Shown piece by piece: positions 1,114-55,029 of a DNA stretch of 64,000 nucleotides (positions are counted from its first letter, which is position 1; each line of letters opens with the position of its first letter). The notes under the pieces were generated by a model that did not search any database, was not told the origin of the DNA, and saw nothing but the letters and a program-made list of their open reading frames with translations. Source of the stretch: Sphingopyxis macrogoltabida (lineage in GTDB: Bacteria > Pseudomonadota > Alphaproteobacteria > Sphingomonadales > Sphingomonadaceae); the NCBI RefSeq assembly GCF_001307295.1, contig NZ_CP012700.1:2421001-2485000 (forward strand). Reading direction: 5' to 3'. A program made the position numbers and the translations under genes.

Positions 1114-1140
1114 CTTTCCTACAATTCACCCATATGGTTC
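1114..1140 (+). promoter_or_regulatory. Shared promoter/operator motif, copy A
   Basis: The sequence reads CCTTTCCTACAAT-N6-ATATGGTTC. The same string with the same 6-base spacing lies upstream of the endolysin gene (35294-35321), and its CTTTCCTACAA core is also in the DUF6456/XRE intergenic region. TACAAT (1120-1125) could serve as a -10 box, but no -35 hexamer is visible 16-18 bp upstream, suggesting activator dependence. It ends 36 nt before the ATG at 1177. Confidence 0.6.
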
Positions 1141-3625: not shown

Positions 3626-3653
3626 TTGACAGAGGAGGGCGACAGGCTATGCT
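3626..3653 (+). promoter_or_regulatory. Sigma70-like promoter of metE
   Basis: TTGACA (3626-3631), a 16-bp spacer and TATGCT (3648-3653). The -10 box lies within a short inverted repeat (CGACAGGCT / AGCCTGTCG, 3640-3664). Transcription should begin near 3660, just before the riboswitch. Confidence 0.7.
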
Positions 3654-3657
3654 TCAG

Positions 3658-3842
3658 CCTGTCGAGGTTCTCCGCGTCCGCTTTGCGGGCAAGGAGCTAA
3701 GACGGGAAGCCGGTGCAAAACCGGCGCTGCCCCCGCAACTGTAAGCGGTGAGCGGCGGTCGCTACGTGTCACTGGTCCGGCAAGGGACCGGGAAGGCCAG
3801 ACCGCCGCGGCGATCCGCGAGCCAGGAGACCTGCCTCGTCAG
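3658..3842 (+). promoter_or_regulatory. Cobalamin (adenosylcobalamin-type) riboswitch
   Basis: The conserved cobalamin riboswitch blocks occur in order: AGACGGGAAGCCGGTG near 3700-3715, then CTGCCCCCGCAACTGTAA at 3727-3744, then the B12 box GAGCCAGGAGACCTGCC at 3819-3835. The element lies in the 5' leader of metE. In bacteria that also make or import B12 and have MetH, such a switch shuts off the cobalamin-independent enzyme when B12 is plentiful. It is about 130 nt from the start codon. Confidence 0.93.
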
Positions 3843-3944
3843 ATACGTCCTCCGGCGGGGTGCCCGGTCAGGCCGCATGCACGCCTGTGCCGGCCCCGCC
3901 TTGCTTTGGGGTGCGCTGTTCCGTGCCTGCCCGTCTGACCGGCG

Positions 3945-27362: not shown

Positions 27363-27845
27363 TCACCCCGTCCCGTAAAACCGCGCCAGCCGGTCGAGCG
27401 CCAGTCCCAGCACCAGCTTGCCCGACCGCGCCGGCCAGCCCAGCCCCTTTTCGGCGCACCCGATCCCCTCGCCGGCGCAGATCACCCGCCAGCAAATGTC
27501 GGCCAGCCCCGGCCCCGCCGTATCGAGCGCCGCATGAAAGCGCCGGCGGGCATCGATCCGCGCCAGCGAGGCATCCGCCGCGCGGGCGCCGCCGCGACTC
27601 TTGCCCGGCGGCGCGGCGTCCCAGCGCATCGTGACCCGCGCCGCCAGTCCCGCGCGCTCATAATCGGCGCGCAGCCGTTCACCCGCGCGCAGTTGCGCAT
27701 CGGTCAGATGCCCGCGCGATGCGAGCCAGGCGATCGGGCTTTCGGCGACATTCACCGTCACGTGGCGCATCACCTGCGGCCCTGCCTTTCCCGGGTCGAT
27801 CCGGTCGTCGGGGTGAAGGCGGGTTTCGAGGCGGCCTGTCGGCAT
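27363..27845 (-). CDS. DUF6456 domain protein, GafY-like candidate GTA activator
   Basis: This 160-aa protein is essentially one DUF6456 domain: LTDAQLRAGERLRADYERAGLAARVTMRWDAA, ARRRFHAALDTAGPGLADICWRVIC, GIGCAEKGLGWPARSGKLVLGLALDRLARFYG. DUF6456 is an alphaproteobacterial domain found in GTA activators of the GafA/GafY type, as I recall the family. The DnaA-like N-terminal HTH of GafA is not obvious here. ATG 27845 has GGAG 7 bases upstream. It is divergent from an XRE regulator across 88 bp that contain the CTTTCCTACAA motif, placed 45 bp before this start. The domain is well supported; the GTA role is inferred. Confidence 0.75.
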   Translation of the reverse strand: MPTGRLETRLHPDDRIDPGKAGPQVMRHVTVNVAESPIAWLASRGHLTDAQLRAGERLRADYERAGLAARVTMRWDAAPPGKSRGGARAADASLARIDARRRFHAALDTAGPGLADICWRVICAGEGIGCAEKGLGWPARSGKLVLGLALDRLARFYGTG

Positions 27846-27874
27846 GCGATTCTCCTTTGGCTTGCACGCCGGGC

Positions 27875-27922
27875 TTGACATTGGGATATTTTGTAGGAAA
27901 GAAGAAACCGATTTGGTTATAT
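27875..27922. promoter_or_regulatory. Divergent promoter region with motif copy C
   Basis: On the minus strand CTTTCCTACAAAATATCCCAAT (27881-27901 region) matches the motif at 1114 and 35294, 45 bp before the DUF6456 start. On the plus strand a TTGACA (27875-27880) precedes it and TTATAT (27917-27922) follows toward the XRE start. A protein bound to the motif would cover both promoters, consistent with autoregulation by the XRE protein. Confidence 0.55.
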
Positions 27923-27933
27923 GGAAGTTCGCC

Positions 27934-28494
27934 ATGATCAACAGCATCCGCGCCGTCCGCCGGGCCAAGGGCCTCACATTGGAGGAAGTGGGCGCGCGCT
28001 GCGACCCGCCGACGACCGCGCAGACGATCGGCCGCCTTGAAACGGGAACGCGTACCCTGTCGCTCGGCTGGATGAACCGCATCGCCAAGGCGCTTGGTGT
28101 CGAAGCCGCCGAACTCGTGCAATTGCCGCAGGACACGCAGCTTACGATCACCGCGCTGCTCGGCACCGAGGGCGCGCAAGCGCCGACGCGCGTCGAGCAG
28201 GCGCTGACCGCGCGGCCGGGGGAGGATATGGTCGCCGTCCGGGTCACCTCGTCGATCGGCGACTATCGTTCGGGGGATGAAATCTGGTGCCGGCGGATCG
28301 AGGGCGACTGGGCCCATGCCCTCAACCGCGACCTGCTCGTGCCCCGCCCCGCCGGCCGCTTCTTCTTCGCGCGGCTGCTCAACGTCGACGGTGAAAAGCT
28401 GCATCTGCTGCCGCTCGGCACCGGCCAGCGGCAACAGGTGGTAAGCAACCCGCCGTGGGCGGCGGTCGCGGTCCGGCTGATCCGCACGCTGTGA
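27934..28494 (+). CDS. XRE-family transcriptional regulator, RogA-like candidate
   Basis: This 186-aa protein has an N-terminal Cro/C1 helix-turn-helix (MINSIRAVRRAKGLTLEEVGARC, then TAQTIGRLETGTRTLSLGWMNRIAKAL). The C-terminal part (DMVAVRVTSSIGDYRSGDEIWC, RFFFARLLNVDGEKLHLLPLG) recalls the LexA/S24 beta fold but has no GDSM catalytic serine, so self-cleavage is unlikely. It is divergent from the DUF6456 gene. In Caulobacter the XRE repressor RogA represses the GTA activators gafYZ, which makes this pair a plausible counterpart. The start is ATG 27934, since in-frame codons further upstream cross the operator. Confidence 0.8.
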   Translation: MINSIRAVRRAKGLTLEEVGARCDPPTTAQTIGRLETGTRTLSLGWMNRIAKALGVEAAELVQLPQDTQLTITALLGTEGAQAPTRVEQALTARPGEDMVAVRVTSSIGDYRSGDEIWCRRIEGDWAHALNRDLLVPRPAGRFFFARLLNVDGEKLHLLPLGTGQRQQVVSNPPWAAVAVRLIRTL

Positions 28495-35293: not shown

Positions 35294-35321
35294 CCTTTCC
35301 TACAATATTCCAATATGGTTC
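35294..35321 (+). promoter_or_regulatory. Shared promoter/operator motif, copy B
   Basis: The sequence reads CCTTTCCTACAAT-N6-ATATGGTTC, identical in both blocks and spacing to copy A at 1114-1140. TACAAT (35301-35306) is a plausible -10 box 51 bp before the endolysin ATG; no -35 box is visible. The same core is in the DUF6456/XRE gap, linking the three loci in one putative regulon. Confidence 0.65.
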
Positions 35322-35356
35322 GTTTTATTTTCTCAAGCGAACCACAGGAGCGAATC

Positions 35357-35932
35357 ATGCCGAAAGCCTACCCTTCGACCTCCGACGTAGACACGCTGGT
35401 CGATGCCGTCATCGACCGCGAAGGCCGATATGTAAACCACCCCGCCGATCGCGGCGGCCCGACCTGCTGGGGGATTACCGAAGCGGTCGCACGCGCGCAG
35501 GGTTATGACGGGGCGATGCGCGACCTTCCCCGCGCGGAGGCGGTATCGATCTATCGCCGCCTCTATTGGCTGCGCCCCGGCTTCGACCGGGTCGCGCTGC
35601 GCGCGCCGAAGATCGCCGCCGAACTGTTCGATACCGGGGTCAACATGGGGACCGGCACCGCGGCCGGCTTTCTCCAGCGCGCGCTCAACGCACTCAACCG
35701 GGCCGCGCGCGACTATCCCGACATCGCGGTCGACCGCGATGTCGGCCCGCGCACCCTGGCGGCGCTCGACGGCTTCCTGAAGGCGCGCGGCAAAGGCGGC
35801 GAGACGGTGCTCCTCCGCGCGATGGAGGCGCTGCAGGGCGAACGCTACATCGCGCTCGCCGAACGGCGCCCGAGCCAGGAAGCCTTTCTCTACGGCTGGC
35901 TGGCGAACCGCATCGGCGACGCAAGCCACTGA
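35357..35932 (+). CDS. Endolysin, glycoside hydrolase 108 family (GTA/phage-type)
   Basis: This 191-aa muramidase-type protein has the GH108 N-terminal motif DREGRYVNHPADRGGPTCWGIT, with the catalytic Glu at about residue 22, then a C-terminal peptidoglycan-binding region (FDTGVNMGTGTAAGFLQRALNALN ... DVGPRTLAALDGFL). It cleaves murein glycan strands. No signal peptide is seen, so release depends on a holin, encoded 58 bp downstream. In Rhodobacter a matching endolysin/holin pair, located away from the capsid cluster, lyses cells to release GTA particles. ATG 35357 has GGAG 7 bases upstream. Confidence 0.93.
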   Translation: MPKAYPSTSDVDTLVDAVIDREGRYVNHPADRGGPTCWGITEAVARAQGYDGAMRDLPRAEAVSIYRRLYWLRPGFDRVALRAPKIAAELFDTGVNMGTGTAAGFLQRALNALNRAARDYPDIAVDRDVGPRTLAALDGFLKARGKGGETVLLRAMEALQGERYIALAERRPSQEAFLYGWLANRIGDASH

Positions 35933-35990: not shown

Positions 35991-36404
35991 ATGAGCATCA
36001 TCGAAGGCCTGATCGGCCCCATCGCCACGCTGATCGACAAGATCATTCCCGACCCCGACGCCCGCGACCGCGCCAAGCTCGAGTTGCTCAAGCTGGAGGG
36101 CAGTCAGGAAATGGAAGCGATCCGCACCCGGATGACCGCGATCGTTGCCGAAGCGGGCAGCGCCGACCCGTGGACCAGCCGCGCGCGGCCGAGCTTCCTC
36201 TATGTGATGTACGCGCTTTTGCTGTGGGCGATTCCGATGGGCCTGATCGCCGCCGCGCGCCCCGAAATGGCGAAAGGCATCGCCGAGGGCATGAACACCT
36301 ATCTCGCGGGCATTCCGGAACCGCTCTACGCGCTCTTCGGCACCGGCTATCTGGGCTACACCGCCGCTAGGGCGTGGGGGAAGGCAAAGGGGGTCGAAGG
36401 CTGA
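35991..36404 (+). CDS. 3TM-type holin (GTA holin family)
   Basis: This 137-aa protein matches the family described as holin of 3TMs for gene-transfer release: an N-terminal helix IIEGLIGPIATLIDKIIPDP, a charged amphipathic middle (RAKLELLKLEGSQEMEAI), then WTSRARPSFLYVMYALLLWAIPMG and a C-terminal hydrophobic segment (LYALFGTGYLGYTAARAWG). It would form membrane lesions that let the upstream endolysin reach the cell wall. It is on the same strand as the endolysin and probably shares its promoter. No other phage genes are nearby, which argues for a GTA lysis cassette rather than a prophage. Confidence 0.9.
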   Translation: MSIIEGLIGPIATLIDKIIPDPDARDRAKLELLKLEGSQEMEAIRTRMTAIVAEAGSADPWTSRARPSFLYVMYALLLWAIPMGLIAAARPEMAKGIAEGMNTYLAGIPEPLYALFGTGYLGYTAARAWGKAKGVEG

Positions 36405-54569: not shown

Positions 54570-54645
54570 GGTTCGTCTCCCTTCTGGTCCGGTTAATACG
54601 CGGACCTGCGGCGCGGGGTTCCGCGCCTTGCTTCGGGAGAGAAAT

Positions 54646-55029
54646 GCCAGAGGGTCTGTAAGCCGGGTTCTGTCCACCCCCTTTGACGGGGGATAGGCGA
54701 TCATTCCTCTAGGCGGACGGTTACCCGAACGCTCAAGCAGTCAACCCGGACGGCGGGGCCGGAACCGACCCTGGATAAATCCGTGCCATCCCTATTCGAC
54801 CTTGCTCCCGGTGGGGTTTGCCATGCCGCGTCCGTTACCGTCCGCGCGGTGCGCTCTTACCGCACCCTTTCACCTTTCGCCGGGCCGAAGCCGTTGGCGG
54901 TCTTCTCTCTGTGGCACTTTCCCTAACCCCCTTGCGGAGGCCGCCGGACGTTATCCGGCACCGTGGTTTCCGTGGAGCCCGGACTTTCCTCCCCCGCTTG
55001 CGCGGCGGCGATCGCCCGACCCTCTGGCG
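54646..55029 (-). ncRNA. rnpB: RNase P RNA (type A)
   Basis: The minus strand begins GCCAGAGGGTCGGGCGATCG and includes the conserved GGAGGAAAGTCCGGGCTCC block near the 5' end, and ends with the matching ACAGAACCCGGCTTACAGAC and complementary CCCTCTGGC closing stem. Interior conserved pieces such as GGTAAACCCC-type and AGGGTGAAA-type segments are present in order. It is the catalytic RNA that trims tRNA 5' leaders; length (about 384 nt) is normal for an alphaproteobacterium. Confidence 0.96.

Follow-up and report, generated by a model that had tools for sequence, protein, structure and literature searches.

A divergent DUF6456/XRE gene pair as the likely switch of a distant gene transfer agent cluster in Sphingopyxis macrogoltabida

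Background

Control of gene transfer agents (GTAs) in Rhodobacter and Caulobacter needs an activator with a DnaA-like part, which is the N-terminus of GafA or the separate protein GafY. The Caulobacter GTA promoter has a poor −35 element (AATCAT) and needs GafY together with IHF, and a near-consensus −35 made it active regardless of GafYZ (PMC11150451). The element recognised by GafZ in this promoter is a palindrome located between −35 and −10, and GafZ acts, together with RNAP, NusA, NusG, and NusE, as an anti-terminator (PMC11150451). The repressor RogA is described as a helix-turn-helix (HTH) domain joined to a LexA/CI-like domain without catalytic residues; its gene (CCNA_00080) is unlinked to gafYZ (CCNA_01111-2), and its ChIP peaks are at gafYZ and CCNA_02002 only (PMC9632790). 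According to a figure derived from counts in the same paper, 265 of 759 GafZ homologues have no adjacent GafY. As for the order studied here, the passages of PMC9765227 on gafA homologues report them, as DUF6456 proteins, in 196 of 208 genomes and in all GTA-containing orders, Sphingomonadales included; to this extent the DUF6456 proteins of Sphingomonadales are already known as gafA homologues.

The window analysed here is the whole stretch of 64,000 nucleotides of Sphingopyxis macrogoltabida at positions 2,421,001 to 2,485,000 of contig NZ_CP012700.1. Relatives were searched in 98 genomes, 59 of them Sphingopyxis (99 genomes with its own). The coordinates of the features are given in Table 1.

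Table 1. Features of the regulatory pair and of the related loci in the window
Feature	Coordinates	Strand	Basis
DUF6456 protein, 160 aa, GafZ/GafA-C-terminal-like	27363..27845	−	PF20057
XRE regulator, 186 aa, predicted RogA-like repressor	27934..28494 (ATG at 27934)	+	HTH_31/HTH_3
Divergent control region, 88 bp	27846..27933	.	Architecture kept across loci
AACC-N5-GGTT palindrome, candidate XRE operator	27906..27918	.	ACC-N5-GGT conservation
CTTTCCTACAA box in the −35 position of the promoter of DUF6456, with TG following TTTCCT by 14 bases	27891..27901	−	
Endolysin (Glyco_hydro_108 + PG_binding_3)	35357..35932	+	Pfam; PHROG endolysin
GTA-type holin (PF11351 GTA_holin_3TM)	35991..36404	+	E 1.4e-32
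CTTTCCTACAA box upstream of the lysis genes	35295..35305	+	
Palindrome-like TCCAATATGGT at the lysis genes	35309..35319		
Terminase-small-subunit-type HTH protein, 328 aa	1177..2163	+	phrog_4044, E 1.9e-7
CTTTCCTACAA box upstream of the terminase-small-subunit-like gene	1114..1124	+	
ACCCATATGGT palindrome at the small-terminase-like gene	1128..1138		

Results

Conservation of the gene pair

The original prediction placed a DUF6456 gene and an XRE regulator gene back to back across a short gap holding the CTTTCCTACAA motif, and both the coordinates and Pfam agree with this: the PF20057 (DUF6456) match spans residues 30–158 (E 6.3e-43) and is the single match of this family in the whole 5.1-Mb genome. 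Among the named loci, which are the best 80 of 165 and come from Sphingopyxis, Sphingomonas, Sphingobium, Novosphingobium and others, the XRE gene stands divergent beside DUF6456 in all 80, with one XRE gene cut by a contig end. The same arrangement is found in 29 of 29 fetched loci of further relatives, 14 of which belong to other families of the order and 15 of which are same-genus loci that overlap the named set. In the short stretches fetched for the 14 distant-relative loci, 12 show a large terminase gene 3′ of DUF6456 and on its strand. Of the 80 named loci, each fetched over 10 kb, 8 contain a large terminase and a further 2 only a small-terminase match. Since the pair is conserved and adjoins terminase in distant relatives, it is taken as a GTA-linked regulator locus. 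In other orders of the class, an XRE gene, a Bac_DnaA_C (GafY-like) gene and DUF6456 stand in line in 3 of 16 loci (L283, L284, and L287).

Two kinds of additional sequence were noted in the window. GAATC, an instance of the CcrM methylation site GANTC, directly precedes the start codons of DUF6456, the endolysin gene and the small-terminase-like gene (stretches 27846–27933, 35340–35357, and 1160–1177, respectively). Of the 81 stretches between the pair genes, 60 contain GANTC (control mean 32.5, maximum 44), as do 30 of the 32 leaders of endolysin genes (control mean 11.5, maximum 17). The cobalamin riboswitch at 3648–3852 and the RNase P RNA at 54643–55027 are ordinary.

GTA cluster and its distribution

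The genome has a capsid cluster of the RcGTA type at about 201–218 kb of contig 1, with 2.2 Mb between it and the window, so that in this genome the pair is far from the genes it might control. The head–tail genes include the small terminase (phrog_4044), the large terminase, the HK97 capsid and the tail tube, as well as a fused TIM-barrel (PF23845)/DUF2460 protein of the Rcc01695 family, with DUF2460 at G000:C1:213530; a short cluster protein matches the first part of the ‘GTA megatron’ below the cut-off. PF13547 (GTA_TIM) has no match in the 99 genomes, the own one included, with control matches in Caulobacter. Because GTA_TIM finds nothing although the cluster is present, DUF2460 was used as the cluster marker.

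According to this marker, 9 of the 51 Sphingopyxis genomes with a full-length DUF6456 are without DUF2460 (G007, G014, G015, G019, G020, G027, G029, G032, and G040). DUF6456 itself is split, partial or missing in 8 of 59 (G010, G013, G016, G026, G033, G034, G042, and G055), including G026, in which it is cut by contig ends, and G042, whose genome is incomplete; 4 of these 8 keep DUF2460. The joint loss of DUF6456 and DUF2460 is therefore a weak trend only (Fisher p 0.06). Both groups of genomes speak for the view that many strains retain the pair as a relic switch, without a working GTA. In the genome studied here, however, the two regulator genes, the endolysin and holin genes and the seven scanned genes of the cluster all have open frames, and we consider this view unlikely. 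A lysis gene with its box is kept at least in G007 and G014 despite the absence of a DUF2460 match.

Palindrome at the pair and at the GTA promoter

The gap of the pair and the GTA cluster promoter have the same palindrome, AACC-N5-GGTT, the second copy lying outside the window at G000:C1:201071-201083. ACC-N5-GGT is present in 79 of 81 pair loci (the window and the 80 named loci; control mean 0.9), with the strict form in 70 of 81, and two tandem palindromes were seen by eye in the gap of L033, L035, L037, and L039. In the 5.1-Mb genome AACCNNATNGGTT has 6 copies (reversed control 0), of which one is in the 88-bp gap, one at the GTA promoter and four in or at the end of open reading frames. 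Across Sphingopyxis, 20 of the 22 GTA promoters have ACC-N5-GG followed by TTGACA (control 0), and outside this genus the relaxed palindrome occurs at 7 of 8 GTA promoters and strict ACC-N5-GGT at 3 of 8.

The box and variants of the palindrome also stand at the lysis genes: CC-N5-GGTT lies downstream of the box in 30 of 32 endolysin upstream stretches. ACC-N5-GGT variants likewise lie downstream of the box at the promoters of the small-terminase-like gene at 1177 and of its second copy, which has its own box at G000:C1:~949 kb. The protein encoded at 1177–2163 belongs to the same PHROG as the small terminase of the GTA cluster itself; the Caulobacter GTA regulon also holds a ‘homeodomain-related’ gene (PMC9632790). 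Six paralogous phrog_4044 genes, each headed by a box, are present in the own genome (1177–2163, L271, L280, L269, L281, and L029).

XRE regulator

The structure model of the XRE protein (pLDDT 89.5, pTM 0.62) most resembles the lambda-186 hybrid repressor, followed by LexA and a lambda CI fragment, with TM-scores of 0.37–0.53. Pfam gives no match for the C-terminal part. In an alignment of 33 sequences, none of the C-terminal columns that are invariant, or almost so, holds a Ser or Lys; self-cleavage is therefore not expected. The protein is thus predicted to consist of an N-terminal HTH and a LexA/CI-like C-terminal domain without catalytic residues, in the manner of RogA.

The recognition helix, TTAQTIGRLE, is readable in 80 loci (the XRE gene of L181 is cut). 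V replaces Q in this helix only in L253 and L257, which are the only two pair loci without the palindrome, and this coincidence points to XRE as the palindrome binder. As these two loci resemble each other, the substitution may have arisen only once. In addition, 5 of the 14 distant loci have no strict palindrome though their helix is mostly unchanged, which argues against a simple rule.

In the GTA promoter, about 9 bp separate the end of the palindrome from TTGACA downstream of it, and a site upstream of the −35 and not over it also fits an activator. Lambda CI, for instance, activates at its own promoter. Both this position and the modelled fold match to lambda-type repressors would suit an XRE protein that activates the GTA promoter from the palindrome and represses only elsewhere. 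Nevertheless, a consensus −35 hardly needs an activator, and RogA, the nearest characterised counterpart, represses GTA (PMC9632790), so that we regard activation by XRE as very improbable.

Promoter box

The CTTTCCTACAA box has three exact copies in the 5.1-Mb genome, all inside the window (reversed-pattern control 1); with up to 2 mismatches it has 10 matches in the window, a number reached in 0 of 100 shuffles. At the pair, 62 of 81 loci retain the form CTTTCCTACA (maximum of first-order resampled controls 0), and upstream of the endolysin 27 of 32 stretches have TTTCCTAC. In 10 of the 16 own-genome CTTTCCTACA sites, a TG resembling that of an extended −10 stands 14 bases after TTTCCT (other offsets ≤4). 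The same spacing is found in 24 of 32 genus sites from which the orthologues of the pair (DUF6456), lysis and small-terminase genes had been dropped (other offsets ≤5), many of these sites coming from one dispersed element and therefore not being independent. In the Sphingopyxis GTA promoter, TTGACA is followed by TG at this distance too. Given this spacing, the CTTTCCTACA box appears to take the −35 place.

The original prediction had regarded the CTTTCCTACAA motif as the link between the pair and the capsid promoter, and this is ruled out: the box is absent from all 22 Sphingopyxis GTA loci (0/22) and from the 8 other terS upstream regions (0/8), and the site that the pair and the cluster do share is the neighbouring AACC-N5-GGTT. 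The motif was also set aside as an XRE operator, as it has promoter-like spacing and heads genes and elements without a palindrome.

Two readings of the box compete with the explanation preferred below. According to the first, the box is read by a protein with no relation to DUF6456, either an alternative sigma factor or a general activator, with the GTA regulator, lysis and small-terminase-like genes among the targets and GTA release tied to a stress response. In its favour, the box has promoter-like spacing without a good −10, there are box targets outside the GTA genes, and the exact 11-mer has 202 copies against 66 for the reversed control in the 59 Sphingopyxis genomes. In the own genome, however, every exact copy of the 11-mer belongs to one of three GTA-type genes, and 8 of the 16 CTTTCCTACA sites lie ahead of genes of this type (DUF6456, lysis, and the six phrog_4044 small-terminase-like genes). 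We consider this explanation less likely than not.

The second reading makes DUF6456 itself a promoter activator, comparable to phage proteins that redirect sigma70. Its sigma-4-like domain would read CTTTCCTACA at the −35 of its own promoter (positive autoregulation) and of the lysis and small-terminase-like promoters, with anti-termination secondary or absent. The box at the −35 place with its TG spacing, the 8 of 16 sites at GTA-type genes and the sigma-4-like structure model are in its favour, as is the autoregulation described in PMC9638019, where the GafA C-terminus binds its own promoter. On the other hand, the GTA cluster promoter carries no box, non-coding elements are among the sequences that the box precedes (in two genomes, with 15 and 21 copies), only 1 of the 14 distant-relative DUF6456 loci has one, and Caulobacter GafZ has a sole target, the GTA promoter (PMC11150451). 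We consider direct activation through the box rather unlikely.

The dispersed non-coding elements headed by the box have a common downstream sequence (L145–L156 in G022; L124, L126, and L142), and the 15 and 21 copies belong to G022 and G054, respectively. Rfam gives no match at gathering scores in 10 of these element loci, which are possibly a small RNA or mobile element family. A box also stands in front of a gene for a protein of 627–629 aa that starts with MTISTF, in two species (L144:2028 and L164:2032); this protein might be a GTA accessory or surface protein.

DUF6456 protein and the search for GafY

The pair had been labelled GafY/RogA-like. The RogA half of this label is retained, since the XRE model is LexA/CI-like as RogA is described, and the GafY half is not, since the DUF6456 protein matches GafZ, the C-terminal half of GafA. 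Residues ~89–160 are modelled much like sigma region 4. Other proteins of the GafZ type have an extra N-terminal part, winged-helix-like by eye, which is present in L032–L045, L283, and L284 (other orders and distant relatives) and absent from the 160-aa form; the latter may therefore not work in the same way. A PDB sequence search gave a single match for DUF6456 (E 0.24), which was not used.

As for GafY, profile A1 was built from six GafY-like genes and run on the 99 genomes, of which it matches 97. In the own genome, where 41 of 62 first-look candidates were scored, its sole match is DnaA (PF00308, PF08299, and PF11638), and the same profile finds no protein like DnaA domain IV beside or fused to DUF6456. 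Three relatives have a second, weaker match to the profile. One of these matches, a 191-aa Bac_DnaA_C protein at L351:887-1459, located away from DUF6456, is the only same-genus GafY-like candidate outside DnaA; its genome (G018) is fragmented, with 7% contamination. A freshwater phage record (MW462191.1:76124-76579) encodes a DUF6456 relative with 35.6% identity, which is in line with a phage origin of the regulator.

GTA promoter and proposed switch

The GTA promoter has the consensus −35, TTGACA. Between −35 and −10, CGYNACG is found in 20 of 22 Sphingopyxis GTA promoters (in 18 as the palindromic CGTNACG) and in 5 of 8 from other genera; of the five distant clusters, TTGACA-CGYNACG is present in two (L329 and L330) and not in L328, L331, and L332. 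Predicted terminators inside the cluster number 7 against a shuffle mean of 3.8, and 5 against a mean of 5.1 (both strands), which is no clear excess over the shuffles.

Since the pair and the GTA promoter have the palindrome in common, the DUF6456/XRE pair is likely to be the on/off switch of the distant GTA cluster. The switch that had been originally predicted is supported in this respect, with a conserved pair that adjoins terminase in distant relatives and a palindrome common to the GTA promoter; the GafY-like identity and the motif link do not. The more specific reading that we favour, and judge somewhat probable from the sequence comparisons, is that XRE represses both DUF6456 and the GTA cluster through the palindrome, while a GafZ-like DUF6456 protein and a consensus −35 make GafY unneeded. 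Its chief weak points are the site of the palindrome upstream of the −35, the terminator counts inside the cluster, and the Sphingopyxis genomes that have DUF6456 but not DUF2460 or the reverse (9 and 4 of 59).

In detail, XRE dimers would bind ACC-N5-GGT between the two genes and curb both. On the palindrome upstream of the GTA −35, XRE would hold the structural cluster down directly, and the palindrome variants would put the lysis and small-terminase-like promoters under the same control. Upon release of XRE, DUF6456 would be made, and its sigma-4-like domain might bind CGYNACG between the GTA −35 and −10, where Caulobacter GafZ has its element. It would then let polymerase read through the long GTA cluster, which is the anti-termination job of GafZ. 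With the consensus TTGACA as the GTA −35, transcription could start upon de-repression alone. On the simplest reading, control would have moved from activation, as in Caulobacter, to repression.

A bolder version turns the pair into a two-gene, phage-like circuit, in which a single kind of palindrome would let XRE directly repress its partner gene as well as the lysis genes and the GTA cluster. The reduced 160-aa DUF6456 protein would replace GafY as well as GafZ, steering polymerase at the CTTTCCTACA −35/TG-N14 promoters and through the capsid cluster. We offer this version tentatively and hold it to be rather unlikely.

Discussion

If a large environmental group does without the DnaA-like part, the core of GTA control would be a DUF6456 protein with an adjacent repressor. 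The change would then be readable in the promoter itself, as a poor versus a consensus −35, and the favoured reading would offer a simple way to switch GTA on in sphingomonads. The literature search found no title on GTA control in sphingomonads and no account of a divergent XRE partner, a missing GafY, a shared palindrome or the promoter class; the passages of PMC9765227 on gafA homologues mention no domain loss, XRE neighbour, palindrome or promoters.

In comparison with the Caulobacter RogA–GafY/GafZ system, the locus has a predicted repressor of HTH and LexA/CI-like build without catalytic residues, likened to RogA by description, as well as a GafZ-type protein, a palindromic element between the GTA −35 and −10, and a GTA cluster and accessory genes at separate loci. 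In contrast to Caulobacter, the regulator gene is divergent from and adjacent to its partner and not unlinked as rogA is to gafYZ, GafY was not found in the own genome, and the GTA −35 is TTGACA instead of AATCAT. The palindrome common to the pair and the GTA promoter also suggests direct repression of the cluster, unlike RogA with its peaks at gafYZ and CCNA_02002. As for GafA of Rhodobacter capsulatus, PMC9638019 describes homologues annotated as DUF6456, like the protein studied here, and a sigma-like C-terminal region, to which the sigma-4-like model of residues ~89–160 may correspond. GafA-type homologues (P0212), however, have about 390 aa and a DnaA-like N-terminus, and the protein of the window has 160 aa and no such N-terminus. 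T4 MotA and AsiA are phage proteins that take over the host polymerase at a box near −35 combined with an extended −10, and lambda Q loads at a promoter and rides along as an anti-terminator. DUF6456 is likened to these proteins by its proposed mode of action, and not by sequence.
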